Below, in pieces: positions 390 through 63,854 of a DNA stretch of 64,000 nucleotides. Below the pieces are notes generated by a model. The model had not been told where the DNA came from. It saw only the letters and a list, made by a program, of their open reading frames with translations, and made no database searches. Positions within the stretch are counted from its first letter, which is position 1. Every line of letters begins with the position of its first letter. The position numbers and the translations under genes are program-made. The DNA comes from a virus. The stretch covers positions 1 to 64,000 of IMG/VR virus record IMGVR_UViG_3300037247_001314; one strand, written 5' to 3'.

Positions 390-433
390 GAATAGATTCT
401 CCTTGTGTCTGGAGGGCTAGCCTAGCGCAGGCG

Positions 434-467
434 CAAAAACAAAGGGGCCACATTTGGGGCCCCTTTG
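434..467 (-). terminator. Rho-independent terminator after the tail tube gene
   Basis: A perfect 9-bp inverted repeat (AAAGGGGCC / GGCCCCTTT) with an 8-base loop is followed, on the minus strand, by TTTGTTTTTG. It lies between the tail tube stop and the next gene and would separate highly expressed sheath/tube transcripts from the downstream gene. Confidence 0.85.
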
Positions 468-493
468 CTCGCACAGTTGTCTGGACGTCTGAA

Positions 494-940
494 TCAGATC
501 TCAAACTCGTCTCTCATCCGAATGCCGACGAAGTCAACGTCGATGCCGACAATGCCCGTCGCATCAATGGAGAAGTTTCTCGACGTCACCGCCGCTTGTT
601 CCAGCGTCATGATGCCGGCGCCGGTCTGGTTGTCCTCAATCGCCACCGTCAGGAGACCCTGCGTGATGACGTTGCTGAGGTGCTCTTCGGGGTTGCTACC
701 CAGCTTGGGGAAGTAGCCGAGGCTCTTGAGCGTGGTTCTGACGACGCGCACAAAGCCCATCGAGAAGTTGACGCGATACCGAGTCGGCACGTTCTCCTCG
801 ACTTGGATGTTGTCGAGGGCCTCCACAGGCTCGTACTGAATCTGCTCGCCGCCAGAACAGTTACGCGCATAGCCGACTTTCTTGCCGGCAATAAGCAGCC
901 TGGCGCGTGCGCCAGTGAAGACCAGTCCTTTTTCTGCCAT
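494..940 (-). CDS. Tail tube protein
   Basis: The 148-residue protein has the size and composition of tube subunits of contractile tails. It begins MAEKGLVFTGARARLLIAGK and has a beta-rich pattern with alternating hydrophobics (for example TRYRVNFSMGFVRVVRTTLK). It sits immediately after the sheath gene, which is the usual sheath-tube order, and is followed by a strong terminator as expected for an abundant structural protein. A ribosome site (AGGAG, 6 bases) precedes the ATG. The call rests on size, fold-like pattern and gene order rather than on a diagnostic motif. Confidence 0.75.
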   Translation of the reverse strand: MAEKGLVFTGARARLLIAGKKVGYARNCSGGEQIQYEPVEALDNIQVEENVPTRYRVNFSMGFVRVVRTTLKSLGYFPKLGSNPEEHLSNVITQGLLTVAIEDNQTGAGIMTLEQAAVTSRNFSIDATGIVGIDVDFVGIRMRDEFEI

Positions 941-970
941 GACTCACTCCTAAAGGTGGCCTGTCTGGAC

Positions 971-3271: not shown

Positions 3272-3311
3272 GCGACCATTAAAAAAGATTGAAGTAGCGA
3301 TGACTTACTCC

Positions 3312-3740: not shown

Positions 3741-3744
3741 CTGC

Positions 3745-4500: not shown

Positions 4501-4508
4501 ACTCGGGT

Positions 4509-5707: not shown

Positions 5708-5709
5708 GG

Positions 5710-6552: not shown

Positions 6553-6566
6553 ATTAGCCCACCCCT

Positions 6567-7262: not shown

Positions 7263-7291
7263 TCATCCAATGTTAGCTCGATATGGTATTG

Positions 7292-10556: not shown

Positions 10557-11138
10557 TCAGCGAGAATCGACTACCGCATTCACCCCGGTTACATCTGCGG
10601 CGTCATTCACGGATGTTTTGAGAGTTGTGCCAGCGTCGAGTGTCGCTCGCACGGCAGCAATGGCAGCAAGCGCAAAAGCGTGCACAGCAGCTGCGTCGGC
10701 GAGCGACACCGTGCCCGTGTCGTCGATGTTGTTCCAGACAACAGGATAAGCGAACGACGCATCATTCCGCATGTCGTCAGCTGCCATAATCTTCAACTGC
10801 GCGGGAAGGGACAGGCTGAAATAGTCACCGCTTGACGCTGGGTATTCAAAGCCAACAGCGATGAGTTCGTTGGTGCGCGCGTCGACTGCCTGGTTTTTAC
10901 TAGCCTTGCTCGTCGCCAGCACGCGAGCAGTGCTGGCTGCTTTGTATGTAGCAATCGTGGTGCCCAACAGCGCTTCGTCTGGGGCGGAAAGGTCTGTCGG
11001 CGTGGTGACGACGACAGCGGTGTCCGACATGCTCACCTTAAACAGAAGCGAAGGTAGGGCGCTTTGGATTGCAGCAGCTACGCCGACGTCTATGTCCCAG
11101 CGCGTGTCGAGGGCACGTGTGAAGTTGTAGTCGGTCAT
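10557..11138 (-). CDS. Tail fibre-associated protein, DUF4376-like
   Basis: The 193-residue protein has an Ala/Asp/Val-rich sequence with a C-terminal part (PVVWNNIDDTGTVSLADAAA, then VHAFALAAIAAVRATLDAG) that recalls the DUF4376 domain found at the end of phage tail proteins. Its start overlaps the stop of the fibre gene upstream by 4 bases. A fibre or fibre-assembly function is inferred. Confidence 0.55.
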   Translation of the reverse strand: MTDYNFTRALDTRWDIDVGVAAAIQSALPSLLFKVSMSDTAVVVTTPTDLSAPDEALLGTTIATYKAASTARVLATSKASKNQAVDARTNELIAVGFEYPASSGDYFSLSLPAQLKIMAADDMRNDASFAYPVVWNNIDDTGTVSLADAAAVHAFALAAIAAVRATLDAGTTLKTSVNDAADVTGVNAVVDSR

Positions 11139-12427
11139 AAAGTGTACTCGATCAGTAGTCCGTAATAGTGGATAACACCTCCCACGCTTACCTGACTCAC
11201 AAGGACACCACCTTGGTCGCCCGCAGCAAGTACACTTAGTACAGGCGTTATATCAATCTCAACAAATTTGTCGGTTAAGCCAGTGAAGTCAAACACTGTC
11301 GTCGTGTCGACCTCGCCGTGCTGATCTATCGACTCACCAGCAGCTACGTTGCCAAACTTTGAGGAAAGGTCGATGTTTTTACCAGAGCCGGCCGATGCAG
11401 AGGTTGGCTTGGCCACCAACACGGCTTTAGTTATCGCAGCTGCGAGTATTGGTACATAGAAGTTGAATCGAGCACTACCGGTAGATGGTATGCTAAGAGA
11501 ACGTCTATCCCCGTCATTGCCGTTGTAGTCGGCTTGAGCCCAAATGCAGCCACTATTCAACGCATCTAGAGCCGTTTTGTCTGCGGCAGACATGAAACCA
11601 TTAAGAGAGTCCGTAGCCACGGCGTGAAAGGTTACGCCAGTAAGGTCCCCGTGCCCGTGCACGTGGTCGCCGCGCGAGAGTAAAGCCGACGTGCCCGTAT
11701 CCGCTGTCCCGAGAGCTGCTGGCGTAGCGTCACTGCGCAAGAGCACCTCGACGGGATTGCCGCTCGCATTGCCGACCCAAAACTTATTCTCGGCGACGTT
11801 TGGTAATGCGTTCGAGCGCAACGCGCCACCGACGTAGACAATCCCGCTAGCGTCAACCTTCAGCACGGTTGCGATTTTTTGGATCTTTGTTGTGGCTCCT
11901 GTTGGCAGAGTGCTTATTAGCTCTCCGGGTGTTTTGGATACATAAAGATTGTCGCCAACAGCAAAACTGGAAGTGTCGATACCAGACAACTCGCCGCTAA
12001 CGCGCACGTCGCCACTGGCACTATTGGTAAAGGATTGCGCAGATATCCCGAGGGCAGGCAGCAAGGCCGGTTGGTCGGCGTCAGAAAGCTCGACGAGAAT
12101 CGTCGAATCACCGGCGTCGTACCCATCGATGAAGACGGTTTTACCTAGGGCAATAGTGCCCGCAGTTTTCTTCTTGCATTTGACCGTCGTGCTGTCGGTG
12201 GTGACCGACGACACTTGGCCCCACGTCGGTGCGGTGGTCAGAAGTATCCATATGCTGTTGTCGTCAGCCTGACGCGCAAACTTGTAGACGTCGTCAGCAG
12301 TAAGGGCGTCAGTGGGACCATCGCTGGGGGTATGGCTCCCGCGCGCGGAGGCGTCCGCGTACACCCAAGAGATGGGGCAGTGGATGCCGTCACTTGGTCG
12401 TTGGTCCTCGTGCCCCCCGCCACTCAT
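11135..12427 (-). CDS. Tail fibre/spike protein
   Basis: The 430-residue protein is rich in Thr, Ser, Gly and Asp. It carries a fibre-like segment around residues 255-285 (LLSRGDHVHGHGDLTGVTFH, then NGFMSAADKTALDAL) of a type common in phage tail fibres, where HxH clusters can bind metal along the trimer axis. The C-terminus is strand-rich and ends in an aromatic YYGLLIEYTL, suggestive of a receptor-binding tip. Base composition around 11.4-12.2 kb is visibly less GC-rich than the neighbours, as often seen for recently exchanged fibre genes. No TCCAGAC motif occurs in this gene. Confidence 0.7.
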   Translation of the reverse strand: MSGGGHEDQRPSDGIHCPISWVYADASARGSHTPSDGPTDALTADDVYKFARQADDNSIWILLTTAPTWGQVSSVTTDSTTVKCKKKTAGTIALGKTVFIDGYDAGDSTILVELSDADQPALLPALGISAQSFTNSASGDVRVSGELSGIDTSSFAVGDNLYVSKTPGELISTLPTGATTKIQKIATVLKVDASGIVYVGGALRSNALPNVAENKFWVGNASGNPVEVLLRSDATPAALGTADTGTSALLSRGDHVHGHGDLTGVTFHAVATDSLNGFMSAADKTALDALNSGCIWAQADYNGNDGDRRSLSIPSTGSARFNFYVPILAAAITKAVLVAKPTSASAGSGKNIDLSSKFGNVAAGESIDQHGEVDTTTVFDFTGLTDKFVEIDITPVLSVLAAGDQGGVLVSQVSVGGVIHYYGLLIEYTL

Positions 12428-12981
12428 GTTCGTGTCCCGTAAAGCAGTTCGCCTCGTCGATTAGTTAGCCACCCGCGACGTCCGACGATTGGTTGCGTCA
12501 GTTCAAATGATGAACCATCTCTGGAAAATAGAACCTGCCCGACCTCAGTCGGCACTGGTAGTGAAATAGTGATGGCCGCTCCGAGTTCTTCAAGTGCAGT
12601 CTGAAGGTTTGTTGCCGCGACGTTAGGAACAGACGAGGGATCGATGCCGACCTTGAGCGCGCCGCAGGGGTGTTTGAACTCGACGCTGCCGCCTGTGGAA
12701 TCGGGGAGCGCGGGCGTAGCCGTTAGCGTGTCGTTGCTTGGGACCGTGTCGACGACGTAGGTGCCGTCGCCCGCCGAGGCACCAGTGAGGACAAAAATAT
12801 CACCAGGCTCGACGGTCTCGTCGCCAATAGACAGGCCAAAATATGGCGCCGAGAGATTCATGGTCATCAGGCCAGACACAACATCTGTCACCGACGTGGT
12901 TTTGAACGAAACAGTGCCATCCGACGCCAGCTCAATGGCGTCGACGATTGCACCGTCCTCAATGTCCGTCTTATCAACCAC
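12424..12981 (-). CDS. Tail fibre N-terminal-type/attachment protein
   Basis: The 185-residue protein starts at GTG (AAGAGG upstream) and is strand-rich with Thr/Ser/Asp. Near the middle it has VPNVAATNLQTALEELGAAI. The pattern VxAxNLQxALEEL is common at fibre collar or attachment regions, and the end resembles the start of a fibre shaft. It overlaps the following fibre gene by 4 bases, so the two probably form one fibre system. Confidence 0.6.
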   Translation of the reverse strand: MVDKTDIEDGAIVDAIELASDGTVSFKTTSVTDVVSGLMTMNLSAPYFGLSIGDETVEPGDIFVLTGASAGDGTYVVDTVPSNDTLTATPALPDSTGGSVEFKHPCGALKVGIDPSSVPNVAATNLQTALEELGAAITISLPVPTEVGQVLFSRDGSSFELTQPIVGRRGWLTNRRGELLYGTRT

Positions 12982-12984
12982 GAA

Positions 12985-13383
12985 CTACCTCTTAGTCTTG
13001 CTCGCCTTCTTCTTGGACGCCTTCTTCTTGGCGGCGGCTTCCTTTTTCTCTTCGGCTTTGTTCTCAGCCAGTTCTTTTTTCTTTTTGGCCTCTTTCTCGA
13101 TTTCTTGCTGCTCACGGATGAGCTGAGTGTTGATGGCGTTGAAGACTGTGGTGTGTAGGGACCTGAAGGCGCGAGCTTTGGCCTCGCTAGCGGCGGCTTG
13201 CTCCCGCATTGTGGCCGCAGCCGCTTCTTCTGCTTGTGCTTTAGATTCAAACTCGTTGAGCATCGTCATACCCAGCACATGAACCCTGCCACTGTTCTCG
13301 TCAAGCTTGAGGAGTTCGTTCGATACCCGTCGCACATTTACAACGGCTTCGGCGTGGTTCATTTCAGGTGTTGGATCGCTCAT
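12985..13383 (-). CDS. Coiled-coil protein with lysine-rich histone-like tail
   Basis: The 132-residue protein begins MSDPTPEMNHAEAVV at an ATG overlapping the previous stop by 4 bases; an upstream in-frame extension is therefore not used. The middle is a long Ala/Glu/Gln helix (AQAEEAAAATMREQAAASEA). The last 35 residues are Lys/Ala-rich (KEAAAKKKASKKKASKTKR), like histone H1 tails, and could bind DNA or an acidic partner. Function is unknown; its position is within the fibre cluster. Confidence 0.6.
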   Translation of the reverse strand: MSDPTPEMNHAEAVVNVRRVSNELLKLDENSGRVHVLGMTMLNEFESKAQAEEAAAATMREQAAASEAKARAFRSLHTTVFNAINTQLIREQQEIEKEAKKKKELAENKAEEKKEAAAKKKASKKKASKTKR

Positions 13384-13631
13384 GGAGTAAGTCCGTTCGC
13401 AAGAGCAAAAGCCTGCCACTTTTCCGGCTGCTCTTTTTTTAGCTTCTTGGCGTGATTGGCAACGCGCATGCACGCTTCGCAGTAGACTTTGCCTTTACCC
13501 TCCTTTTCAGTAACGAGAAACCACCTCATGACCTTCTTGCCAATCATCAGCGGTGCGTGATGCCCGGAGGCGCAGAGGCGCCCTGGCGGCGCCTCTACGT
13601 TCTTCAGAGTCAGGTCAGCTGGAGCCTGCAT
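13380..13631 (-). CDS. Small zinc-ribbon-like protein
   Basis: The 83-residue basic protein has CASGHHAP near residue 20 and YCEACMRVANH near residue 50, a Cys/His set able to hold one zinc. The C-terminal helix is Lys-rich (HAKKLKKEQPEKW). It starts one base after the stop of the large structural gene and overlaps the next gene by 4 bases. No family is recognised. Confidence 0.6.
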   Translation of the reverse strand: MQAPADLTLKNVEAPPGRLCASGHHAPLMIGKKVMRWFLVTEKEGKGKVYCEACMRVANHAKKLKKEQPEKWQAFALANGLTP

Positions 13632-15488
13632 TTACGCGTAGACAAGCCACTCAGCGATGTCGCCGACCTTGACTTTGTTGTAGACGGTGACTGTCGTTGA
13701 CGAGGTCTCGTCGTAATCATGGCCACCTTCGGTTCCATCACCCGGCGTGCGGAGTTCTTTGCGCCAAAAGAGGATGAGGTTCTGGCCGCTGTTGCTGTCA
13801 GGCGTGTACGTGCCGCTTGGGATCGTGAGAACGGCACCGACAGCCACCGCCACAGTCAGCACCTGGATGACGCGTGTGAAGTTCGAGCCGGCAACAGCGT
13901 CGGACAGCGCCTGTAGCGACGCCGTAATCGTCTCGCCATCGGTGAGGATGGCGCCAGTGTAATCCCGGTTTCCGATTTCGGTGTTGAGGACGTTGAGCGC
14001 TTCTACGACGTCGGGAGTAGCATCGGGGAGATCCGACCACGCAAAGAAGTTGGTCGTGGGTGTGAGGAGACCGCCAAGGTGTGTGACCCCGTCGGCAAGA
14101 AGGTCGCTGAGAACATCCTGTAGGTCGTTGATGCGCTGACTGAGACCAGCGTCGCCGACAAGGCCGTTAGCGAGACGGCGTCGAAGAGCAACATCACTCA
14201 TCGAGTCCATGCGCTCACGAAAACCGTAGACCATGTTCACCGACGTGGGCTGGTCACGTTCCCAAGTATACACGTTGGACACGGACAAAGCGGCGCCTGG
14301 CGCGACATGGAAGAACTGGACTTCGACCTCGTTGGGCTCGGTAGCGGACCCGGCAAAGGTGATGCCGTAGACGCGGTCGCCATAGTCAGCGTCGCCGCCA
14401 GCGAAATCGGAAACCAAGAAGCCGGCGTTGGCCACAGTTTCAGTGGCAACGGCTCCGGCTTGAACACCGGGGTTTGCGTGGGTGAAGTTGACCGTCGCAG
14501 CGCCGCCGCTAACGGCAGTCACCAGCAAGCTCGGAGCGGCAAGGATGGCTGCCACCAGAGCGTCGCGAATAAAGTCGGCGGTCTCCGTTCCCGTGTGGTC
14601 AACAGAACGAGAGAACTCTGTTTCCGCATGCGATCCGTCATCGTCAAAAACGAAGACGGTGGGCGTGTTGACCCCGTCGTCAATGGTAACGAAGTCGGTG
14701 TCGGCGCCGACTGCGAGTAGCGATGCAGCAACGGTGGTGAAGTCGCCGACTTCGCTGCCGAGCAACGTTAACGGCTGGCCAGTGGCGGGGTCGTAAATCT
14801 CGACGTAGCTGGCCTCAAAGACGCCAGCATCTGCGCCGTCCTGAATGGGGACACCCGTGCGATCGACAGCATCGGCGTGCGTTAAGTTGCCTGCATCGGA
14901 AAGCGTGACGAGGGTATCTCCCTCAGCCACGGCTTCACCTAGCGCCTCGCGGTCCGTGACCAGGGCTTTGGAGTCGAGGGAGATGAGGTTGGTCAGGCTC
15001 TTGTCGACGTTTGAACCGATAGCAGTCGGTCGCACGTACGTCGGGATGGCTGCATCAAACGCTACGCCCTTGATGTTGGCGCGGTCGCTGAGCGTGTAGT
15101 TAACGTTGTCTTCAAGCGAGTATCCCTGCCGCTCGGTCCAAGTGATGGAGCCGTTGTTGGCGTCGGGCGCCACAGCCGAGGCGTTAACCACGTCGACAGT
15201 GTTCGCGTCGATGTGGTTAACGATCAGGAACTCGCCGTTGTTGCCGCCGCTGGCTGCACCTGAAAGGCGCAAGAACTTATGGAGAGATTCGGCGGTCATA
15301 CCCGTGAGGCCGCTGATCCGTGCCTGGCCAGCAGGGGCGCCTGCGATGACGTTGGCAGCTACGCCTGTTTGACCAGTGATTGCAGCGCCGAGGAACAAGC
15401 TCTCTTCGCCATAAGGGAGGGCGCCACTCTGATTGAGGGACCCAGCGATATCGATCTGTTGGTCCAGAAGACCGGCAAGTGCACTCAT
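13632..15488 (-). CDS. Large virion structural protein (fibre/baseplate-type)
   Basis: The 618-residue protein is acidic and rich in Ala, Val, Thr, Asp and Gly, with many short strand-like segments (FVFDDDGSHAETEFSRSVDH, TETADFIRDALVAAI). A helical stretch (MSDVALRRRLANGLVGDAG) lies in the second half. The composition is that of a surface or fibre protein. It is preceded by an excellent ribosome site (AGGAGA) and begins a cluster of fibre genes. No TCCAGAC/GTCTGGA motif occurs in the gene. Confidence 0.65.
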   Translation of the reverse strand: MSALAGLLDQQIDIAGSLNQSGALPYGEESLFLGAAITGQTGVAANVIAGAPAGQARISGLTGMTAESLHKFLRLSGAASGGNNGEFLIVNHIDANTVDVVNASAVAPDANNGSITWTERQGYSLEDNVNYTLSDRANIKGVAFDAAIPTYVRPTAIGSNVDKSLTNLISLDSKALVTDREALGEAVAEGDTLVTLSDAGNLTHADAVDRTGVPIQDGADAGVFEASYVEIYDPATGQPLTLLGSEVGDFTTVAASLLAVGADTDFVTIDDGVNTPTVFVFDDDGSHAETEFSRSVDHTGTETADFIRDALVAAILAAPSLLVTAVSGGAATVNFTHANPGVQAGAVATETVANAGFLVSDFAGGDADYGDRVYGITFAGSATEPNEVEVQFFHVAPGAALSVSNVYTWERDQPTSVNMVYGFRERMDSMSDVALRRRLANGLVGDAGLSQRINDLQDVLSDLLADGVTHLGGLLTPTTNFFAWSDLPDATPDVVEALNVLNTEIGNRDYTGAILTDGETITASLQALSDAVAGSNFTRVIQVLTVAVAVGAVLTIPSGTYTPDSNSGQNLILFWRKELRTPGDGTEGGHDYDETSSTTVTVYNKVKVGDIAEWLVYA

Positions 15489-15505
15489 TTTCTATCTCCT
15501 GGCCA

Positions 15506-15802
15506 TCAGGCCGCGTAATACGTGGCTCTCAAAACAGACCGCGCGTTCGGTGTGAACGAAAGTAGGGTCACCGTATCAAACCCACCCCCAGAATCCGAGA
15601 CGATGAAATCCCCAGGAGGCTGATTCGCCACAATGCCTTGGTCAAGGAGTCGACCGTTGTGGGACAAGGCGAGAGTGATTCCACCTGGAGTATGAAGAAA
15701 GGCCTCTGCTGTCTGGAAAATACGGGGGTCCCCCGTGGCTACCAGCGCTACACCAATGCGGAATGCGCTCGGGGGGATAGCACGACGCCGGACGAGCAGC
15801 AT
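15506..15802 (-). CDS. Small virion-module protein, unknown
   Basis: The 98-residue protein has a beta-rich pattern (AFRIGVALVATGDPRIFQTA, then ITLALSHNGRLLDQGIV) and no recognised motif. It sits three bases after the preceding gene, with AAGGGG upstream of the ATG. A head or fibre accessory role is inferred from position only. Confidence 0.55.
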   Translation of the reverse strand: MLLVRRRAIPPSAFRIGVALVATGDPRIFQTAEAFLHTPGGITLALSHNGRLLDQGIVANQPPGDFIVSDSGGGFDTVTLLSFTPNARSVLRATYYAA

Positions 15803-17682: not shown

Positions 17683-19122
17683 TTAGGGCTGCCCCTTGAA
17701 GTTGGGGGCTCGACCGATGTTCCGGATGAGTACGGCCTTGCCCGGGGCATAGAGCACCGGAACTCCGTATACTAATTGCATCCAACGGATTGACGTCGAC
17801 ACGGTGGCCAGCGGCACCTTGAGGAATGGCGCCAACTGTTTCCAGCTGAGGCACTCAAGGTTCTGTTGCCAAAGGATGGCGATCGAGGTGAACGGCAAAC
17901 GATCGTTGACATCGTCGAAGGTGAACTCGCCCGCGCCAGCGGTGTTCGGGGTGCGAGCGATCTGCCGTTGTTTGCCAACAGCTCCGCCCTTTTTGGTGCG
18001 GTAGAGTTCGTACCACTTCACGCCGACGGCAGACCCGGGGGTCACACCGAACGTCATCTTGTCGCCTTCAGCAACGGCAATAGCACTGCCGTCGACAGCA
18101 ACGGCAACGCTACGGCCGAAGTCATTGTGCGCGGACACGCTGTAGAAGTAGGAACCTGCGTCTTCAGCGTCAAAGAGCGAGCCAGCGTCGGCCGGGGTTG
18201 TTGCGCCAGTCGAAATCGTTGGTGTCGCAGGACGCTGTGCGGCGTCGCCGGCCGCGGTAGCTTTCGGCGAACCGCCATCATTCACGAAAACATTCGGCTC
18301 AAAAAGCACATCGCCGGCCGGGCTGGTGAAGCCCTTGATATCGAGCCCAACCATCCCGTCCTTGCGCTTGTCCAGAAGGTCGTAGCGCCCCTTCGGGAAG
18401 AAGCTCTTGACGAGGTCAGCCTTAATCTTCGGATTGAGATGCAGGTGGGTCGGAATCCCGAAGTTCGGGTCGTCGCTGATGGTGAGCGCAGCGTCAATGA
18501 GGATGTCCTCGTCGAGCGGCTTACCACGCTGGTCGATGATGTTGTCAGCCGGCGCGTTGTCGGTGATGAGCTTCTCGTAGCCGTCAAACTGAATAGTCGA
18601 CAGCGAAGAGTCAGCGTAGAACAACGCACGCTCGACGATGCGCAAAAGCCACATCGTCCCCGCCACCGTTTCGTTTGCGATGACGTTGCCATGCGCCGGA
18701 CGAATCAAGCTCATCACGTGACTGACTGACCTGGTCGTGCCCAGGAACTTCACGGCCGCGTAGCGTCGAGCGAACGTAGAATCGTCCTCGGGAGGCAGCG
18801 CGCCCTCCGCGATGAAGCCCTCGATTCCTTCGCCGTAGCTCGAAATCTCGTTGTGCTCCTCGACGGTGTTGTACGCCGCGAGCTTGGGAATGGCCTTGAA
18901 CAGCCGGATGTGTTCCATCCGGTAGGTGACGTTCTTCAACGTCTGCTCGAGCGACTCAACGCGCAGAGGGAACCCCTGCCCCGGAGCAGCGCCCGGGTTG
19001 TTGATGTCGTTGCCCGCCGTGAGGGCCTTGTTCAGGTGGTCGAGGTCAGATTCCGAGAACGGATTTCCCGGCCCGAACCCGTCCACCCCGTCGTAGTCCT
19101 TCCAGGACACTTGGTCGATCAT
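17683..19122 (-). CDS. Major capsid protein with an Ig/FnIII-like insertion
   Basis: The 479-residue protein is the shell subunit. It follows the prohead protease and scaffold-like genes and has a strong ribosome site (AAGGAG, 8 bases). The N-arm includes KNVTYRMEHIRLFKAIPK at residues 63-80. Residues about 120-290 contain HK97-fold-like segments (VKFLGTTRSVSHVMSLIRPA, PTHLHLNPKIKADLVKSFFP). Residues about 300-410 form an inserted sandwich domain (GSYFYSVSAHNDFGRSVAVA, VKWYELYRTKKGG) of FnIII/Ig type, as found on the surface of several phage capsids. The C-terminus returns to the capsid fold (WQQNLECLSWKQLAPFLKVP). The gene contains none of the dispersed TCCAGAC motifs. Confidence 0.9.
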   Translation of the reverse strand: MIDQVSWKDYDGVDGFGPGNPFSESDLDHLNKALTAGNDINNPGAAPGQGFPLRVESLEQTLKNVTYRMEHIRLFKAIPKLAAYNTVEEHNEISSYGEGIEGFIAEGALPPEDDSTFARRYAAVKFLGTTRSVSHVMSLIRPAHGNVIANETVAGTMWLLRIVERALFYADSSLSTIQFDGYEKLITDNAPADNIIDQRGKPLDEDILIDAALTISDDPNFGIPTHLHLNPKIKADLVKSFFPKGRYDLLDKRKDGMVGLDIKGFTSPAGDVLFEPNVFVNDGGSPKATAAGDAAQRPATPTISTGATTPADAGSLFDAEDAGSYFYSVSAHNDFGRSVAVAVDGSAIAVAEGDKMTFGVTPGSAVGVKWYELYRTKKGGAVGKQRQIARTPNTAGAGEFTFDDVNDRLPFTSIAILWQQNLECLSWKQLAPFLKVPLATVSTSIRWMQLVYGVPVLYAPGKAVLIRNIGRAPNFKGQP

Positions 19123-21108: not shown

Positions 21109-21455
21109 TACAAAAACTCCTTGAACCGTTCCTCGAGCCTCGTTTGAGCCTCAGCCTCATTTGCCGCTGTTGGCCAATCCTCATCGGGGAACTGCGTGCC
21201 GAGTTCGGCGTAACGCTGCACCGTCGGCCAGAGCAGAAGGATAATGCCCTCAGCTGTTGGCACACGCAGGATACCGTCCTCGGGGTCATCAAGGAAGTCA
21301 GGGTGCTCGTCCAGAAAGGGGAGCCACAACTTCCCATTGCCCGGAGTGTTTGATAGCTGGAGTCGACCCGCAGACATGCTCACCTTCACGGCAGCTGTGA
21401 GCGGTTGGCGGGGGGAAACGCGCAAGTCGCGCACGATGTAAATGCCGGCTTTCAT
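21108..21455 (-). CDS. Unknown protein after the giant virion protein
   Basis: The 115-residue protein starts MKAGIYIVRDLRVSPRQPL at an ATG overlapping the previous stop by 4 bases; an upstream in-frame Met is inside the giant gene and is rejected. It has a strand-rich first half and a helical acidic end (NEAEAQTRLEERFKEFL). No family is recognised. Confidence 0.55.
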   Translation of the reverse strand: MKAGIYIVRDLRVSPRQPLTAAVKVSMSAGRLQLSNTPGNGKLWLPFLDEHPDFLDDPEDGILRVPTAEGIILLLWPTVQRYAELGTQFPDEDWPTAANEAEAQTRLEERFKEFL

Positions 21456-24400
21456 GCGCCCACCTTCAGACCTTTGCACGCGTCCTTAAGTGCTGTGTCG
21501 GTCTGAGTACCCGTGAAGAAAAAGTCGTCGACGGGGACACCATTGATTTTGGTCTTGCCGGCAGTCTTCATCGTGTTGATGAGTTCGCTGCGGATGGACA
21601 ACGAGCGGCACCACACCCCGGCGATGTCCTCATGAGCGACGCCGTTTTCGAACATCACCTCGTGATTGCTACTCGTGAGCTTCAATACCTCTTCTTCAGG
21701 CTTGCCTGTGTTCTTCGTGTCGGACTGGATTTGCGAGCCGTAACGATCGTGATGATGCGCCCAATAGTCTGCGCGCTTGAGGACACGCGGATGGTAGATG
21801 TAGCGGACCTGCGTATCGCTGTCGTCGTAACCGTGCACTGAACTTGCACCAGGGCCGCCCTTGCGCGCGACGCGCACCATCGTGCCCGCAGCGCCGCCCG
21901 TGTTGATGTCGTCGCTAGCTTGCGAACTCTTTGGCGCGGTGCCGTTTGTGTAGCCTTGTTTCCTCGATGGGATGCCTGTCTCGCTGAGCAAGATTGACGC
22001 TGCAGCTCCCGGGGAAGCCCCGCCTGTGTGCGCGAAGTAGACGTCCTTGAGTTCCTCCTTGCTGAAGCGGTCAAACCAGACAGTGTGCGCTCCGCCAGCG
22101 CCAACACGAATCTCAGCGGTGTCGACGTACTTCGCGTAGTCCATTTTCTTCAGCTGGCCATCCAGCCAAGCCTCGTCAGCATACTTGCGCCTGTCGAGGT
22201 CGTTACCGTCGATGTCGTAGAGCCAGTGCCCGCGCGTGCCTAAGCCACACTTCACGATTTGACTCTTGATGAAGAGCCGCTCTGCATCAGCGTCGTGGGT
22301 GCTAGCCGCGAGCTCGGGGGAGACGCCTGCCATCTGGAGTACGTGTTGCAGCTCTGTCTGGACATCTTTCGAGACGGGAATGCGCGCGACGAGACGCCCA
22401 CGCATCGCTACCCCTGCGGCTTGCTTTGGATCGTCTGTCTGGACGTATTTACCAGCTTGGTACATCGTGCCGTTTTGGTGACAAACGCCGACGTAAGAAC
22501 CCCCATCGGTCTTGCCGTCGTAGCCACCCCAGCCGCCTTCGATAGGCGTGTTGCCTTTCTTGTGCAGCCCCGTGTCCTCGTCGTAGATGTCGAAGCTTGG
22601 TGCTCCCTTCTTGTCGACCGGATGGTAGTATTTGACAACGCCCTTCGAGAGCTTTGAAGCGTCAGGCTCAAAATGCAGAAGGTCGCCGGTGAGCTCGTAA
22701 TAATCTTCGCCGTCTGGGTTGTCGACGCGGCGCACACTCACTTGGTGGTTTTGCCAAAGCCCTGCAGCGCCGTGCCTGATGGAATGGCCCCAGTGCCCCA
22801 TCTTGAACGAGTCGAGCGCAGCGAGGTCCCCTTCGTTATTCACCGCGAGCCCGCCCTGCTTTTGTGGGCCGAGTGCGAATGGCACGGGTGCTTGCACAAA
22901 CGCTGGCGGAAGCTCGGGGAGTATCGGGGTGACTTCCTTTGACGTTTCAAAGGCAGCGTCGAGGTCGGCCTTCGACACCGTGAAGACGGTACTGACGGAT
23001 ACCTGCGGTTCCCCGTGAGCAGTGATACCCTTTGCCGCTAAATACGCTGCAGCGTCTTCCTTTACCTTCGCAGAGACGCCGTTGAACTTGATGACAAGTT
23101 TGTCGGGCTCGCTGTCGTGCGCCTTAATCTTTTTCGGTTTCCCGGGCTCGATAGCCGTGAGGTCCGCGAGTACAACATCCCGCACCGTTTTGGTGACAAT
23201 CTCGTTAACCTCAAAGGTGGTGCCTTTCGGGTAAGTCAGACCATCGTGCGCAGCCTTGAGATACTTAGCGTCTGGAAAACGTTTCGCGAGCGCGCTCTTC
23301 TTGACGACGAGCATCGTTCCAAGGGGCGAATCGGAATCCGTCGAGGGTGGCATTCCCTCCCAGTTCTCCACAGACGTGTGGAACGCATTCGCGTCTTTGC
23401 CGGCGAGCAAATAGTTACCCTTGCCGTCCTCATGAACGTGCAGGCCTGCAGTGTAGCCTCCGTCTGCTAGCTGCTTCTGGAAGTGTGCGAGTACAAGCAA
23501 GTCCTCCGCGTCGGTCGGCTTCAGATTGTCTTTCGCCCACGCAGTCCAAGCTTGCGCTTTCTTGATTTGCTCCGAGTTGACGGGAACCTTGGGCTTCACC
23601 ACCTGGAGCGTGACGGGAGTCTTTTTCTTTTTGACCTTGTCACCAGGCCACTGAACAGACGCCCCACCTGCGTCTTTCACTAGGCTCGCTATTTGGTGCG
23701 AGGCGTAGACGCCAATGCCTTCACCCATCTTGTCGACACCGGTGAACTTCGAGTACGGCTTCCCACCGTCGGCCGTGAAGATGTCGCCCCACTTCGTGTG
23801 GAGCTTCACGTTCGCAGGGAGTTCTTTGATTTTGTCGTTGATGGTCGTCGACTTGAGATGGCCGCCGAGTGCCTTGACTTTCTTCACGCCCGACGGGTGC
23901 GAGGGCGTCTTCACCGTCAACGGGTCGACGACGACAGAATGCGTAGCGACTGATGTGTTGCCGTAGAGGTTGCCGTCGTTACCCTTCCAATAGGTCACGT
24001 TCTCTTTGACGAGTTGAATGCCAAACTTGTGGTCGGAATGCAGGACCGTCCCCACAGGGAGAGCCTTGAGTTCTGCCGGCGTCATCGAAGAAAAGTTACC
24101 CAGCGCGGGATCGAAACCGGCGTAGCCTGAATCGCTCTCCAACGTGAAGTCGGCCACGAGACTCGACGGGATGCCTTCCGACATCGGCTCGCCATCGTCA
24201 CCGATACCGGCCCAGTTACCGTTGGCGAGCTTGACGAGCTTGTCTCCAGACTTCACATGCACGCTGGCCCCAACGGGAGCCGCCTCGAGCGTGTCGACTG
24301 AGTTCACCGGCGATGTGCCGGGCCAGTCGTAGTTTGGCGCCGGAGTAATTGTTGGCGGGGTGGACGCAGCCTCGATGGCAGTCGTCTCAACAGCAAACTC

Positions 24401-27400
24401 TTTTACTGTTGCGCCGTGGTCCCCGAGCAGGCACCACGCGTTTAGGGCTCCTATGTGGGCCTGTGCCGGCTTGAGCGGAGCGAGGTTGTGGTCGTCGATA
24501 AACGTTTGAAGTACACCAGCGGCTGAGAGGCTTGCTCCCGCATTTGGATAGAAACGGAGAACATGTTCGCCACCGTGTGGGCTCACGGTGAACTTGCCGC
24601 CGTACTTCTGCTGCACCGACTCTTGCTGGATGTAGTCGCCGAGCACCATCTTCGTGACGACGGCTTTCGTCTTTTGCTCGGGGGGAATGTCTTGTGGATG
24701 GGCGCCGATGGCGGAGTCAGCCGTTATTAGCGCAGCATGGGTCGCGAAAGTGTCGTCTTGAGCGAACGCAGCAGTGTCGAGGTGGAATGCTTCTTCCATC
24801 GCTTCGTAACTGCCAGTTTTGCCGAGCGCGCTCCCGAGCGCGTAGAGCGCCGTCTGATTAGCGTCCCCGTGCGTGACGGCGCCATCCTCATTAACCGCTA
24901 CAAACTTTACTTGCCAAGGCGCACTACCATCGGTGTTGTACCCACTTGCTGTCGTCGTAATCCAAGTTTTTTTGCCCTTCCATTCGCCTTGTAGCCAAAC
25001 GCCCGTAGGCGGAACCCATGGATCCCAATGCGGACTTTTCATGCCGTAGGTTTTGTCAGGCTTACCTGGAACCGGAGCACCGGCGAGCTTCTGCGCGTTT
25101 GTCCAGACGGCTTCCTTCTCAGCAAAATCGGGTAGCGATTCCTTCGTCGTCACGACTACCGGCCCTGGGTCGCCAGAGATAGACGGGGTGGCCGGGGACC
25201 AACCAGAGAGTAATAGCTCAAGCGGAGTAAGCTCTTTTGGTTCAGGCTGCACAGTGCTTACAGGGTCGTGGGGCATCTGGACGAGCCATTCGAACGACTC
25301 GGGCTGAAAGTCCTTTGGGCTGAATGCGAACTCATCGCCAAGTTTTTTGCTGTACCACTTGCTGTCGTTGTGCTTGGTGTAGGTGTCCTTATCGTGCGTC
25401 ACCGACGAGCCCGGAGCCATCGCGGTAAGTTCGGCTACCGTCAACGGCTTGGCCCCGGAGCCACCAGCTGCGCCTGGCTGATGGATGATTTTGAGGTCGC
25501 TAGCTGCCATCTCCGTTGCAGAGAAGTTTGACCCGATGGTGTTGACGTAGCCGTCAGCAACTTTTTTATACGTGTAGCCCGCTGAGTCCTTGAGCACAGA
25601 GTTGAGAGGAAGTTTTGAAAGCTCGACAAGAGACGGAAGTTTCGCGCCTTTCCAAAGAAGTTTGCTCTCAACGTCTGGAACTGGCCCCGGGAGCACCTTC
25701 CATGTTGTGGAACTCAACGGGAGAAAGTCCGGGTGCGTAACGATGTTGGTGCCAACTGCGACCCATTGCTCGTCAGACTCTTTGATGAACGCCTTCTCAC
25801 CGTTGTTGATCATTGAGCCGAGCGGCATGGCCGCGAGCTCGGCCAACGTGAGTTCTTTTGCGCCAAATAGCGCGGGCAGCACGCCTAGGGGCAGCGGCGA
25901 CTGCGCTGCAGGGGCGTCGGGGGCGAGGACCTTCATGCCGCCATACCCAGACGATGCGTCTCCGGCGATATCGGAACTCAGCTGCTCGTCGGATAACGCA
26001 GGAATATCGGTGATGCCTAATGGCTTCCATCCAGACGCAGTCTTAACCCAACCATCCTCGCCAGGAAGGGTCTCTGGGCCCGGCTTGGATCCCGGCTCGC
26101 CATAGACGAGCATGGTGCCTTCAGGAAGTGCAGCGAGTTCGTCGCCACTCGGAAGTTTCCAATCGTCCCAGCCCGGCTCTCCGGGCGCGCTCGGGGTGAG
26201 CGGCGTAGCGAACGTCATGAGTTCGCCGCTCTTTGGTTTCACGCCAAAAAACTCCCAACCACCTCCAGACGCAACCTTCGTCTTGCCGGTTTGCTTCTTA
26301 TAATCCGCTTTGTCCTCGTAACCCTTCTGGCGGAGCCAGACCCAATCACTTGCTGCCGACAGGCTTTTGAAGGTTTGCTCTGCATCCGCTGCAGCACCGG
26401 GGACACCAGCGATAGAAACCTTGAAGCCTTCTTCCAACACTTCAAGGTCGACCGCTACCTCGTACTCTTTTGTTCCAACGCCAGTGGGCGTCGGTAACAC
26501 AAATGGCTTGAGCATCGTGTGCTTGTGCCCAACAGGAAGCGGACCGCCCTTCTTTGGGTAGACGGGGTTCGCGAGGATGGTGTCCTGGACAACAAAGTCA
26601 GAAATCACCTCAGCCTTAGGCGCGAGCCCGACGACGGGCTTGGGGGGAGGGGGCGGCTTGGGCTTTTTGAGCTGCTGGGTCGCCTTCGCTGCTGCGGAAA
26701 CAGACGGGAGCAATAGCACGGGTTTGAGCCCCGGGCTGGAGGCAGAGAACGCGCCGTACTCTGTCGCTGCACCATTCGACGCTACAGAATAGTATTTGAA
26801 AAGAGGGGCGCCGTCTGGAGATTGGTGAGCGACATAAATGTCAAACGATCCACCTCCGTCGAGAGCTTTGATGACGCTGCCGGGGAGCGGAAGGTTGGCG
26901 GGCCAATCATGTGGCACCGTCGCCTTCGCGTGCTTGGCTGCAAACAACTTCGCAGCATTTGGGATGAGTGCGGAGTCAGCGATGATGCCGTCCTCGACGG
27001 TGGCCAGCATCTCGTGCAGCGTGAGCGCCTTCTGCTCAGGCGTGACCTTCTTTTCAGCGACGAGTTCTTCGTACGTCTTGCTCGCAATGGTAGCTGCGCC
27101 TTGCAGCCCCGCAGCCTTGAGGTCCTCTGCAAACTGTTCCAACTCAAAGAGCTTCGTCGCGCTGAGCGCGATGCCGTTCTTCTTCTTATCCGACGAGTTC
27201 ATGTCTAGCGGAAGATTCTTGTTGAACAGCTGAGTGCCGTCAGCTGCTGCCGCTGGCGACGGGTAGAGTATGAACTTGCCGTCTGGAAACTGCGCCTGCA
27301 CCTCCATCTTGCCCGAAAACGGATTCAGCTCAAAGGCAAACGCAAACGTGTTGCCCGCGACCTTCACAGACGCGTAGTAGCCCGGGCCCGGATAGTTGCT

Positions 27401-38566: not shown

Positions 38567-40501
38567 CTACCATTCAAAATCCTTATTGCCGAGTCCTGGC
38601 AAATGGCGCCAGGCGAGTTCATCTGGATGCAGCTGGTCGTCTGGCACGAGGGAGGCCTCCTGCGCTGACCGTGTTGCTCGCGGGCCCACAAGATTCTCGA
38701 CGGTGAGGTGCTGAGCGATAAAGTCTTTGATGGCGTCCTTAGGCGCGTCCTCGATTTCGACGTCGCCGCCCCACTCCTGCAGCAAGTCGCCCACAGGGTC
38801 GTCCCCCCACTGTGCTGCGTCCGGCTCGACCATCTGTTGGTCCAGGAGTTGGTCAAGGCTGAGGTCGTCGTCGCCCTCCTCACCAAAGGAGAAGCCAAAG
38901 GCCCCTGCCCTGACCGCGCAGTTAGCGATCCAGAAAGCCATCACCGTGTCGTCGTGAGAGCCGACGCCTTGGAGCTTGCCCTCCAGCCACGTGAAGTGCC
39001 GCATTTCCTTTATCCAGATGTCGCTCTTCTCGACGCTCTCTTGGTCGCCGCGGGGAATGCGCACCTTCGCGTTTTCCAGCAACACGCGCAGCTGGGGCAC
39101 GCCGCCTTCGAGGGTGTTTTTGTTCATCGTGTGCGTGTTGCCTGAAGGTTGCGCCGAGTTTGACTTCTTGGTTCCAGACGTCACGAACTTGTAGATGGGC
39201 AGGTCAGTCTCGCGGATGAGGTCATCAGCAAAGATGCGTTGCATTTGATTCGATTCCAGATAGATGAGGTCAGCGTCGTACTTTCGCCCGAGTGCGTTGA
39301 TGAGTCCCAGTTGTTGTTTGTATTCCAGACCGTGGTGGCGTTGGATGTCGATGATCCATCTGTTGCGTGCTTGGTCCAGACCGAGGACGAAGCCGACGGT
39401 GTAGTCCGCCCCCGTCGACGTCGAGATGGCGAAGTCGAAACCAATGTAGAAGCTCGTGATGCCGAGCTCCTCGTAGTACGCACGCGTCTGCCCCATCTTC
39501 ACGCCCAGCTGCTCGGTAGGCGACCCTCGGAAGAGTCGGCCGGGGAACAAGCTCATCTCGTCGCTGATGGGCTCGCACATGAACTCGCGCGTGAAGCGCA
39601 CGCTCTTGATTTCGAGTTCGCGCTCTTCGAGAGACTCGACGACAATGCCTTGTTCCAAGTAGCGAAGCCGTTCGGCCTTCGTCGCGCAGAATCGCTCGGG
39701 CCACAGCGCCTCACCTGCCAGATTGCGTGCTGCGTATTTGCGGTAGCAGTAGCGTTTGTTCTCAGCGAGGTCAGCGTAGAGGTCGGCCGCGTGGAACGGT
39801 GTGCCCACGACGATGACCTGGCCGCCAGGGTTCACCATGTTTGTGATGGCCGTGTAGAAGTAGTCTATGTGCTTGTTGCGAACGAGTTCGCTATACGCGT
39901 CCTCGTCGTTGAGCCCGTCGTCGACGACGATCCAGTCAGGGTGGGCTCCGCGGATCTTGGTGCCGAAACCGCGCGCGTAGATTTTATGGCCGTTGGCCAA
40001 AGTGATCTGAGTCTTGCTCCAGTTGCGCGCTTTGTTCTTCGGGTTGAGGAACGCAAGCTTGGGGTTGCTCTCAATCTCCTCTTTGATGTCTTCGAGGATT
40101 CGAACAGCCTGCTCTTGCGTCGCCGAGAAGATGTAACCTCGACCACCAGGCATGAACGCCGCTTTCCAAATAGGAAAAGCGAAGTCGAAGAAAAATGTTT
40201 TTCCGTGATTTCTCGGGGCCAACACGCAGATGCGGTCTTCTTTGGCGACGAGTTCGTCCCACTCCATGTGGTGTTCGGCGACGATGAAATGGCTGTTGTA
40301 GGGAGCCTGCACTGGCCCAGACAGACACTCGCTCGCGAAGAAAGCGCATGACTCCCGCATCATCTCGATGGTGAGCGCGTCCCAGTCGTCGTCGCCACCT
40401 TCGACCGCAGCGTGGGCACGACGTTCTACAGCGTCGTCGTCCCACTCGGGAACGCCGCTACTAAAGAGCTCACCAAATCCGTTAGCCGGCATTGCCATCA
40501 T
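38567..40501 (-). CDS. terL: Terminase large subunit
   Basis: The 644-residue ATPase-nuclease drives DNA packaging. The Walker A variant APRNHGKT is at residues 95-102, Walker B DWIVVDD at 189-195, and the coupling segment IVVGTPFHAADLY near 235. The RNase H-fold nuclease shows its three acidic positions: FYIGFDFAIS (Asp356), DLIYLES (Glu416) and GSHDDTVMAFW (Asp517/518). An acidic C-terminal extension of about 110 residues (DDDLSLDQLLDQQMVEPDAA) goes beyond the usual length and may contact the portal. It follows two small genes that could include the small subunit. Confidence 0.95.
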   Translation of the reverse strand: MMAMPANGFGELFSSGVPEWDDDAVERRAHAAVEGGDDDWDALTIEMMRESCAFFASECLSGPVQAPYNSHFIVAEHHMEWDELVAKEDRICVLAPRNHGKTFFFDFAFPIWKAAFMPGGRGYIFSATQEQAVRILEDIKEEIESNPKLAFLNPKNKARNWSKTQITLANGHKIYARGFGTKIRGAHPDWIVVDDGLNDEDAYSELVRNKHIDYFYTAITNMVNPGGQVIVVGTPFHAADLYADLAENKRYCYRKYAARNLAGEALWPERFCATKAERLRYLEQGIVVESLEERELEIKSVRFTREFMCEPISDEMSLFPGRLFRGSPTEQLGVKMGQTRAYYEELGITSFYIGFDFAISTSTGADYTVGFVLGLDQARNRWIIDIQRHHGLEYKQQLGLINALGRKYDADLIYLESNQMQRIFADDLIRETDLPIYKFVTSGTKKSNSAQPSGNTHTMNKNTLEGGVPQLRVLLENAKVRIPRGDQESVEKSDIWIKEMRHFTWLEGKLQGVGSHDDTVMAFWIANCAVRAGAFGFSFGEEGDDDLSLDQLLDQQMVEPDAAQWGDDPVGDLLQEWGGDVEIEDAPKDAIKDFIAQHLTVENLVGPRATRSAQEASLVPDDQLHPDELAWRHLPGLGNKDFEW

Positions 40502-47700: not shown

Positions 47701-48909
47701 TTAGATCTGAATAGTGACAGCGCGCTTCACTGGGCGGCGTTCCAGATAAGCGCTTATGAACGCCTGCGCTTGCGGAGCGACGATAGCGTTTCCGTAGGCG
47801 CACAATCGCCCCACGCGGTTGGCAACCCCATGAGCCAACGGGAATGTGCCGGGTTCAACTGGCCGGGCTTTTCCGTCGGTGCAGGGGATCCAGTCAGCGT
47901 CTCCCCAATAGCTCTCTCCGCGTCCAAGGCTAGACAAGCGCAACCGTGCTTCGTCCCGTGCTTGGCCTTCTGCGTTCGGCTGCGTCCTCTGGCGTCGTGC
48001 GCTTGCGGTGTCGTCCAGTGCGCGGCGTGCAACGCTGCCGCCTTCAGAGCCACCCCTCCTTGCCGTCCCGGGGGTATCTGTGGCCCCGTGCCGTCGTTCG
48101 CTCGGGGTGTGGGCCAATGGGCCCGCGTCGCTCTCGTCGGCAGATCGTCGTGTGTCGCTGACCGCTCTTTCCCAACTGACCTCGTCGATGCTCCCTTGTG
48201 GTCGGTGGCGTTCGGCGTCGGCCAAGTTGCCAGCTGCGCTTGTAGGTTGAGGCTGGTCAGCGACACACCCAGCTTGAATCCCTTCGCTATCGCCGCTCTT
48301 TTTCTCGCCAGGAACTGCTCCGGCGTGCCTCCCGCTTCGCGCGCTGCAGGCGTTGCCCATGGAGCCGCTTCTTCGACCGATAGGTTGATGTTGCCGTTTG
48401 CCACGCTCGTCGTGGGCAGACCAATAGAGTCGTTTCCTTTGGTGCGGGGCACCGAAACCACAAGCCGCGGTAACTGCCGCCCCGACGGTGTATCCGCCAC
48501 TTTCCAGGTCTGTCGATACAAGGTCGAGCCAAGTTTCGCCTGGCTTACCCGCAACCTGTTCGCCAAAGATGTTGTGAGGAGCGCACTGCTCAATGAGCCA
48601 GAACCAGGAGGGCCAGAGGTGCCGCTCGTCAGCAAACCCCGCTCCTTTGCCTGCCGCGCTGAAAGGTTGGCAAGGACAACTTCCAGTCCAGACGGGACGG
48701 TCATCGGGCCAACCCGCGTTTCTGAGCGCCAAGCTCCAGACACCTATTCCCGCGAAGAAGTGACATTGTGTGTATCCTTTCAGCTCCGATGGAGTGACAT
48801 CCTCAATGCTCCGCTCATCGACGTCACCAGGTGCGATATGTCCTGCAGCAATAAGATTGCGGAGCCATTGCGCAGCGTAAAGGTCAATCTCGTTGTAGTA
48901 CGCGACCAC
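47701..48909 (-). CDS. C5-cytosine DNA methyltransferase
   Basis: The 402-residue enzyme has the cytosine-C5 motifs in order. Motif I is FFAGIG (51-56), motif IV is the catalytic [14 protein letters not shown] (Cys80), GEQVAG near 117 stands in place of the usual ENV, and motif VIII is QRKRLYW (157-163). The late motif is [18 protein letters not shown] near the C-terminus. The N-terminal [17 protein letters not shown] is typical of phage versions. The region between motifs VIII and IX (about 165-335) is Arg/Ser/Gly-rich and overlaps a second long open frame. The protein ends [12 protein letters not shown], one of the shared tails. GTG start with GAGGTGA upstream. It may protect phage DNA from host restriction. 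Confidence 0.9.
47754..48743 (-). CDS. Alternative-frame ORF inside the methyltransferase gene
   Basis: A 329-codon open frame runs in another phase of the same strand. It encodes a non-random protein with [20 protein letters not shown] and repeated W-[AP]-T-P-x-A-x(0-3)-D units ([32 protein letters not shown]). I recall the same GSTLYxxTWKxxxTPSGR and WxTPxAxD pattern from proteins annotated next to or within such methyltransferase genes in other phages and bacteria. It may be a genuine overlapping gene, or a remnant of the frame the methyltransferase region evolved from. There is no strong ribosome site at the ATG. Confidence 0.4.
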
Positions 48910-56233: not shown

Positions 56234-56236
56234 GTC

Positions 56237-61369: not shown

Positions 61370-61371
61370 CG

Positions 61372-62572: not shown

Positions 62573-62810
62573 TGAGGTGCTCCCGTGCGCGAGCTAGCCA
62601 CTCAGTGGTGTTGACCGACCGCTGTGTGAATGCGCTGGTTACGCGGTCACCTGCTTTGTGTTCCAGGAGGAACACAGCGTCGTCGACGATAGATCGACTG
62701 GTCGTGTCTTTTGCGCGCAAGCTCTTGACGTACTCGCGCACCGCGTTCTCCTTGCAGCCGTCGACCTTTTCGAGCGCAGCGAGCCACTCGTCGAATCTGT
62801 CGTCAGTCAT
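62565..62810 (-). CDS. Small unknown protein
   Basis: The 81-residue protein begins MTDDRFDEWLAALEKVDGCK at the ATG overlapping the previous stop by 4 bases. It is helical, ends EWLARAREHLNG and contains no recognised motif. Confidence 0.5.
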   Translation of the reverse strand: MTDDRFDEWLAALEKVDGCKENAVREYVKSLRAKDTTSRSIVDDAVFLLEHKAGDRVTSAFTQRSVNTTEWLARAREHLNG

Positions 62811-63199
62811 CGGGGGCATAGTCCGCGAGCCTCCGCGAGTAGCTGTTCAAGCACGCACTCGCGTTGTAGTGATTCCAGAATCGCTTTGGCGTCTTTGCGC
62901 CGCAGTGGGAAGCCGTCGCCGTTGTCCCAACCGGCTTTCGCGACGCCGCCAATGAACTCGACGAGAGTGTTGACGGCGACGTGGGTAGACTCATACCCCT
63001 GCAGCGCGAAAGCTCGTCGATTGAAATCGCATTTCTTCCACGTCGACGGGGTAGCCCATTCTTCAATGCGGAGGGTCTTGATGGTGTCCGCCTGTCTATC
63101 GATGCCGACGACGCGGCATTGCTGAGCCCAACGGTCAATGAGCAGCTGCCCAATGCGAGCAACTTTGAAGGTGAGGATGTCGCCGATGTGTAAGCTCAC
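62807..63199 (-). CDS. Unknown protein
   Basis: The 130-residue protein begins MSLHIGDILTFKVARIGQLL, a beta-barrel-like start with a Trp-rich middle (EEWATPSTWKKCDFNRRAFA). Its C-terminal helix is LESLQRECVLEQLLAEARG. The GTG start overlaps the previous stop by 4 bases. Confidence 0.5.
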   Translation of the reverse strand: MSLHIGDILTFKVARIGQLLIDRWAQQCRVVGIDRQADTIKTLRIEEWATPSTWKKCDFNRRAFALQGYESTHVAVNTLVEFIGGVAKAGWDNGDGFPLRRKDAKAILESLQRECVLEQLLAEARGLCPR

Positions 63200-63363
63200 A
63201 CACGTCTCCGCTCGTCGTAGTCGTTGCGTTTGCGGAACTCGCGCACGGCCGTGTCAGCTTCGCACGCCGCCTGCGCGCACCCGGAACAGGTAACCACCTC
63301 AGCATAGACGCGCGTCCACAGCTGGCGCTCGTGGTCGTTCTTAAACTCTTCCAGTTGGTGCAT
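63196..63363 (-). CDS. Short Cys-containing protein (55 aa)
   Basis: The 55-residue protein begins MHQLEEFKNDHERQLWTRVY and contains VTCSGCAQAACEAD, three cysteines in a short span. It ends REFRKRNDYDERRRV. It fills the gap between the winged-helix gene and the next, and its stop overlaps the following GTG (GTGA), which supports it as a gene. AGGAGG lies upstream. Confidence 0.6.
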   Translation of the reverse strand: MHQLEEFKNDHERQLWTRVYAEVVTCSGCAQAACEADTAVREFRKRNDYDERRRV

Positions 63364-63377
63364 CTGGACCTCCTACC

Positions 63378-63854
63378 CTAGACAACACTGGAGGTGTCTG
63401 GAGTGCAACCTCTTTTCTTTCGTCGGCGTGACATTTCTCGATGACCCCGCGGAGACAGGCTCACCCACGTGTGCCCTTCCTTGCGCACCACCGTTAGCCG
63501 CCCCGCTTCCTCAGCGCTCTTCACGTGGGCTGAAGCTGTCGACTGGGGCATGTCTAGGCCGTCGCGAATGTCCTGCAGCCTGAGCGTGCTCGCGCCCACG
63601 TAGAGCATGAGAACGAAGTGCCTGATGGGGATGAGGTCAGAGCGCGATGTGGGCATCGTCTGGAAGATGCTGCGGGCGAGCTCGCGGTCAGCGCGTCGCG
63701 GGCGGCACGCTGGGATGTGTCGGCGTTTGCGGGCCGCGTAGATCGCCTGCACCGAGACGTCCAGACGGGTGGCCAGCACCTGGTCCGGCACTTCCCCTAG
63801 AGGTTGCTCGTCCCACGCGACGCCACGAGGGGCAGATGTGCCACTTTTAGCCAT
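63378..63854 (-). CDS. Winged-helix transcriptional regulator
   Basis: The 158-residue protein begins MAKSGTSAPRGVAWDEQPLG, with GGAGG 6 bases before the ATG. Residues about 25-55 contain a helix-turn-helix (DQVLATRLDVSVQAIYAARK). Residues about 80-140 form a MarR/ArsR-like winged helix (LRLQDIRDGLDMPQSTASAH-VKSAEEAGRLTVVRKEGHTW-VSLSPRG). The C-terminus is basic. It may act on the operator-bearing early promoters. Confidence 0.7.
   Translation of the reverse strand: MAKSGTSAPRGVAWDEQPLGEVPDQVLATRLDVSVQAIYAARKRRHIPACRPRRADRELARSIFQTMPTSRSDLIPIRHFVLMLYVGASTLRLQDIRDGLDMPQSTASAHVKSAEEAGRLTVVRKEGHTWVSLSPRGHREMSRRRKKRGCTPDTSSVV

Follow-up and report, generated by a model that had tools for sequence, protein, structure and literature searches.

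The genome of an uncultivated, distantly SPO1-like phage is iterated throughout with a short DNA word, TCCAGAC and its complement GTCTGGA, which is kept in place at the DNA level and has a sharp six-base core with graded flanks. The word varies by lineage and is present in some members of this phage group and absent from others. We tentatively propose that this lineage may carry a genome-wide, evolving dialect code whose mechanism is unlike that of Chi, DNA uptake sequences or HIP1. Its short word, present in hundreds of copies and switched between relatives, would have as its reader a factor that the phage encodes or that co-evolves with it. The density of the word, its dialects and their turnover appear to be new in degree.

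The study phage (G000) is a 106,804-base IMG/VR virus record, and the window analyzed here is the stretch from base 1 to base 64,000 (64 kb) of that record. Relatives are labeled from G001 upward, and L-numbers denote loci or pieces. The genomes are metagenomic contigs throughout, and G000 apparently is without several kilobases of shared end genes (the 17.6–28.3 kb region of G001). The capsid and portal (portal gene, SPO1-like, 32,936–34,846, minus strand) are distantly related to those of Bacillus phage SPO1, with about 37–43% identity.

Abundance, constraint and distribution of the word

The window contains 67 copies of TCCAGAC and 62 of GTCTGGA, the first at position 407 and the last at 63,760–63,766. 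For these 129 copies, base composition predicts 8.4 and an order-2 Markov model 9.3, in good agreement with the original prediction of about 125 copies versus about 8. Against the Markov background, TCCAGAC is the most over-represented 7-mer in the window (z 37) and TCCAGA the most over-represented 6-mer (181 copies of TCCAGA/TCTGGA on both strands versus 29.7 expected). The whole record holds 204 copies (103 and 101 by strand), with 20 expected under an order-3 Markov model and 15 copies of a reversed control word. The excess is lost with almost any substitution within TCCAGA, while the outer positions are graded, as TCCAGAT and TCCAGAA are enriched too and TCCAGAG is not; the full consensus is (T/G)TCCAGA(C>T>A)(G/A). 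The TCCAGA core and the common one-base variant TCCAGAT of the 7-mer, both anticipated, were recovered.

The signal had been attributed to the DNA and not to a protein repeat, with copies in both orientations, every codon phase and intergenic DNA, and each of these points held. A synonymous codon shuffle, in which proteins and codon usage were fixed, gave 27.4 ± 4.3 copies in genes versus 156 observed, and hence the excess stays after correction for codon usage. Intergenic DNA harbors 41 copies at a density of 3.0 per kb compared to 1.75 per kb in coding DNA, as would be expected if the word itself is favored and coding merely interferes. All codon phases are used (on the coding strand, 14/35/28 for GTCTGGA and 2/39/45 for TCCAGAC). 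Although the predicted genes, which come from a simple caller and are approximate, lie almost all on one strand, the word is equally frequent on both.

The sites are also conserved in related phages. Of the 100 sites that can be aligned between G000 and G001, 48 are the same in both, while the divergence of their flanks predicts 11.2, and between G008 and G024, 75 of 123 aligned sites are conserved versus 14.2 expected. Thus, sites are kept far above expectation and the remainder turn over.

The mean spacing in G000, which had been put at roughly 500 bases, is 524 bases and Poisson-like (CV 1.08), and spacings are exponential-like in eight phages (CV 0.96–1.11). Neither a preferred pair distance nor orientation runs were found in G000 and G001, and in seven genomes aligned at terL the orientation of the word showed no consistent skew with position from that gene. 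This random spacing and orientation neutrality argue for sites that act singly and in either direction. Paired or regularly spaced operators were rejected given the Poisson spacing and the absence of a favored pair distance, and strand-polar signals linked to the direction of replication or transcription were rejected given the absence of a consistent skew on the terL-aligned genomes. A primase or nickase site had also been suggested. However, a strand-specific nickase, which expects its site on one strand only, or a unidirectional primase predicts strand asymmetry, and the 103 versus 101 copies and the absence of strand domains show none.

The motif had been described as missing from the fiber cluster and the capsid gene, which is broadly right. 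The longest stretch without an exact 7-mer, 10,739–15,711, lies in a tail-fiber-like gene cluster, and the SPO1-like major capsid protein gene (37% identity; 17,683–19,122, minus strand) contains no copy versus 2.7 expected. Most of the fiber-cluster genes of G000 have no G001 homolog, and the fiber interval between the flanking genes holds 5 copies versus 14.9 expected (p 0.003) in G000 and 10 versus 18.5 in G001. The absence is therefore consistent with the recent acquisition that had been proposed, as far as G000 and G001 are concerned, but this is no general rule, as four other relatives show no significant depletion. Summed over seven phages, the major capsid gene has 7 copies versus about 22 expected; its poverty in the motif across relatives possibly reflects codon optimization or protein constraint.

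Dialects of the word among related phages

Searches with the terminase (large subunit gene, 38,567–40,501, minus strand), capsid and DnaB proteins identified more than 100 related contigs, several near-complete ones among them, with the DnaB set extending far outside the group. G001 (110 kb), the nearest relative recovered, is collinear with G000 and circularly permuted; its terminase is 83–86% identical and its aligned DNA about 63–81% identical. The top word of each phage is given here as observed copies over the order-3 Markov expectation. It is TCCAGAC in G001 (197/22), TCCAGAA in G008 (198/31) and G024 (207/41), in both within TTCCAGAAA, and again TCCAGAA in G147 (336/59). The other top words are TTCCAGA in G002 (79/5), TCCAGACT in G003 (33/0.9), TCCAGAAA in G149 (46/4) and in G017 (87/14), the latter with TCCAGCAA (52/8) in addition, TCCAGCAA in G011 (50/9), TCCGGA in G014 (319/58), TTCCGGAA in G015 (155/9), TTCCGCA in G148 (168/29), AGTCTGGA in G155 (29/1.2), CTGACAAT in G151 (39/2) and CGACAATT in G153 (68/5). 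In relative terms, the strongest excess observed is that of GAGACAAA in the more distant G150 (56/0.6; L172/L173, 50 kb, 68% GC). The dialects of the relatives are often related words, among them TTCCAGAA(A), TTCCGGA(A), TTCCGCA and TTTCCAGACT, and more distant relatives use GGAGACAA, CTGACAAT and CAATTGTCG.

The codon-shuffle null was exceeded by 18 phages, G000 and 17 relatives (the weaker G156 included), with z values of 8 to 72. In G013, G019, G023, G025 and G006, k-mer counts revealed no comparable word. Motif-bearing and motif-less phages are interspersed on the capsid tree, where the two TCCGGAA phages, G014 and G015, are non-sisters; no core protein is markedly alike between these two. 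At some loci other words lead, for example CTCGAG or GAGCTC, in rankings uncorrected for codon bias.

Unrelated phages do not share the excess. The maximum 7-mer z was 7.7 in 22 control loci of about 14–21 kb compared to 15–22 here (20 kb), and 50-kb stretches of SPO1, X1 and Phrappuccino gave 7-mer z values of at most 9.4 compared to 31 (50 kb) here. A scan for two close copies of the TTCCAGAAA word was also used to look for unrelated phages, and the sole iterating contig among the matches listed was a member of the family.

The extreme iteration, DNA-level constraint and lineage dialects form a natural experiment in virus genomes, in which the word can be read directly from the sequence of uncultivated phages, so that covariation offers a way to its reader protein, be it a host nuclease, a primase or another, and biochemical assays a way to test it. 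If the reader is host-encoded, the word would be a signature by which hosts are assigned to uncultivated phages; if phage-encoded, it would reveal a genome-marking system of which no description was found among the open-access papers searched.

Candidate readers of the word

The original prediction likened the motif to Chi sites, DNA-uptake sequences and HIP1-type motifs, and the statistics of the word do resemble these. The best fit, which we favor with caution, is that the word may be a host-encoded, Chi-like recombination or nuclease-control site. It would be the recognition site of a host-encoded DNA-processing enzyme, most likely an end-resecting nuclease of the RecBCD/AddAB/AdnAB-like type, for which the word would behave like Chi. 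At each copy, in either orientation, the enzyme would switch from degrading broken or linear phage DNA to promoting its recombinational repair and the formation of concatemers. The dialects would track the host's enzyme, new genes would gain copies gradually, and motif-less relatives would have hosts without such an enzyme or would inhibit it.

Several features point in this direction. The primase, the DUF2924 protein (below) and DnaB are present in motif-less relatives, which points to a factor outside the phage core; together with the patchiness of the motif and the presence of TCCGGAA in two non-sisters, this tilts the balance toward a host-encoded reader. Among host readers, a Chi-like regulator best fits words that are sharp, dispersed, single and orientation-neutral. 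The strand balance and the Poisson spacing fit a site of which each copy works alone, whichever end it is approached from, and a 6–8-base word with single-base sharpness, over-represented and dispersed, has the size of known Chi sites, which range from 5-mers to 8-mers (PMC5959072). Phages over-represent host Chi, virulent T5 included, with observed/expected ratios of about 2.5–3.1 and ~0.2 sites per kb, and the excess is also seen in recombinase-encoding phages without RecBCD inhibitors (PMC3784561). Chi, for which selection in phage genomes is thus documented (PMC3784561; for P. syringae Chi, PMC5959072), is likewise a short, sharp, dispersed word, independent of codon phase, with species-specific versions.

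The phage words differ from Chi, however, in their near-palindromic dialects and in an excess of about 10-fold at 1.9 per kb, far above the density of Chi in phages. The phage-encoded RecA and SbcCD-like proteins would reduce the need for host recombination, and related words at only about 35–40% mean protein identity could equally mean an inherited, phage-encoded reader. We know of no Chi sequence that matches these words.

The sole hint to the host is one related contig binned in a Gemmatimonadota MAG. Enrichment of the word in candidate hosts, another proposed check, was not seen in 121 Gemmatimonadota genomes, in which TTCCRGAA occurs at ~0.1 per kb, far below the phages; Gemmatimonadota were rejected as word-enriched hosts on this basis. 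The nearest isolate matches of capsid and portal, about 37–43% identical, are SPO1-like phages of Firmicutes and too distant to assign a host.

A less likely reading is that replication primes at the words through the DnaG/T7-type primase that the phage itself encodes (record 91,582–92,643; L002:7582–8643), the zinc-binding part of which would read the word on the single-stranded template, with copies on both strands starting Okazaki fragments every 0.5–1 kb per strand at any fork direction. The primase is found in all complete relatives and, having been proposed before the test, showed the strongest covariation with dialect among 36 protein families once genome-wide divergence was corrected for (partial r 0.35–0.37, permutation p 0.028, in 12–13 phages only). 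A 70-column primase window just after the zinc-binding region beat all 243 windows of the other families in a post hoc comparison. A parallel is the phage primase-polymerase NrS-1, a replication enzyme that reads the 8-base word TTTGGTTA, as described in the part of PMC8718748 drawn on here; NrS-1 belongs to the archaeo-eukaryotic primase family, and that part reports no genome-wide enrichment of its word. Against priming, motif-less G013 and G023 carry the same primase, and the primases of G014 and G015, which share TCCGGAA, resemble each other no more than would be expected. Dialect is not followed by the zinc knuckle on its own (p 0.28), and strand domains are absent. In addition, known TOPRIM primases recognize about three bases.

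We doubt a HIP1-like origin, whereby the word is modified by a host or phage methyltransferase and its copies arise and persist through repair or protection that depends on methylation. In cyanobacteria, HIP1 and alternate HIPs iterate comparably, with extreme iteration of about one per kb and alternate words in relatives, and are linked to cognate methyltransferases (PMC4390886). But HIP1 is palindromic and found in host chromosomes, whereas the words here occur in phages and are mostly non-palindromic (TCCAGAC is asymmetric and only the TCCGGA dialects are palindromic), and among the families tried no phage methyltransferase is shared by all motif phages or accompanies the word wherever it iterates. 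The C5-cytosine DNA methyltransferase (47,701–48,909, minus strand) had been named as a possible agent. This was not borne out, as its family occurs in 2 of 15 records tested, G000 and G001 only, and relatives such as G008, G024 and G147 iterate equally or more strongly, although the methyltransferase families searched for in each of them gave no match. A common phage methyltransferase was likewise rejected: PF00145, PF01555, phrog_799, phrog_116 and phrog_67 are scattered and absent from several strong-motif phages, with none of the five in G008, G011, G017 and G024 and none of the three tried in G147. In favor of methylation, G000 and G001 share two other methyltransferases, and a small phrog_799 methyltransferase is common to the TCCGGAA phages G014 (L061:7428–8078) and G015 (L069:13042–13680) alone, the 19 further records tested being without it; this enzyme may protect CCGG-containing sites and thereby permit the TCCGGA dialect. 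One-base neighbors, C-to-T included, show no clear depletion, which a strong conversion drive should produce, and a C-to-T repair drive was rejected for this reason.

A similarly poor candidate is a phage-encoded DNA-binding protein that would organize or mark phage DNA by binding the word. The protein in question, of 385 residues, adjoins PolA (record 89,472–90,629; L002:5472–6629) and combines a histone-H1/HC2-like lysine-rich tract with a C-terminal DUF2924 domain. Of the complete motif genomes examined, all but G148 (no profile match) encode it. It covaries with dialect about as the primase does (partial r 0.33), and orientation-neutral binding to double-stranded DNA would suit the strand balance and palindromic dialects. 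However, the protein also occurs in motif-less G013, G023 and G025, and nucleoid proteins seldom recognize a core with the sharpness of a restriction site. As a marker of motif phages it failed when a profile search found it in G023 and G013. Other genes considered as exclusive to motif phages encode a membrane/lysis protein, tail proteins and metabolic enzymes; each of these is missing from at least one motif phage.

Two further systems share features with the phage words. The DNA uptake sequence of Neisseriaceae is an iterated word with lineage-specific dialects, according to the sections of PMC3630211 used here, but is a cellular competence signal of 10–12 bases read by ComP (PMC3868556, in part), whereas the word here has 6–8 bases and belongs to a phage lineage. 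The localized nick sites of phages tf, T5 and phiKMV-like phages are also short repeated consensus sequences that vary among relatives; unlike the present words, which lie on both strands, they are few (14 in tf) and on one strand only (PMC3517423). The rest of the probability goes to other readers. Finally, an artefact of base composition, codon usage or assembly has nothing in its favor except that these genomes are generally biased in GC content and codons, and can be dismissed almost entirely, refuted as it is by the codon-shuffle null, the intergenic excess, the site conservation and the independent relatives.

Other features of the phage genomes

The record encodes PolA, DnaB, the DnaG-like primase, RecA, SbcC/SbcD-like proteins, thymidylate synthase, D12 N6-adenine and C5 methyltransferases, a PHP-domain protein and an ADP-ribosylglycohydrolase (L001:9707–10765); no tRNA genes were found in it. 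The same phage has a 2465-residue protein (window 21,452–28,849) in which a stretch of 106 residues resembles the ADP-ribosyltransferase portion of minor capsid fusions from mycobacteriophages. An 833-residue protein (window 29,186–31,687) that adjoins the portal gene region contains an inorganic-pyrophosphatase-like domain, PF18823, and has homologs in all relatives tested. A DNA helicase (L002:11602–12528; record 95,602–96,528) gives a weak intein-splicing match (E 0.006) and has 308 residues here versus 515 in another member of the family; an intein possibly interrupts the gene.

Avoidance of restriction-type words varies among the relatives. In the window, AATT occurs 10 times versus about 151 expected and GATC 224 times versus about 508; both avoidances are much weaker in L004 of G001, and L008 is without GATC. 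TCCGGA is scarce in G000, G001, G002 and G011 and iterated in G014 and G015. In L351 (contig 3300049198_000021, 176 kb), a locus without protein similarity to the study phage group, GTTAACC is found 28 times within 11 kb. Many of these copies form inverted pairs a short distance apart, a pattern suggestive of promoter or operator dyads that are repeated.
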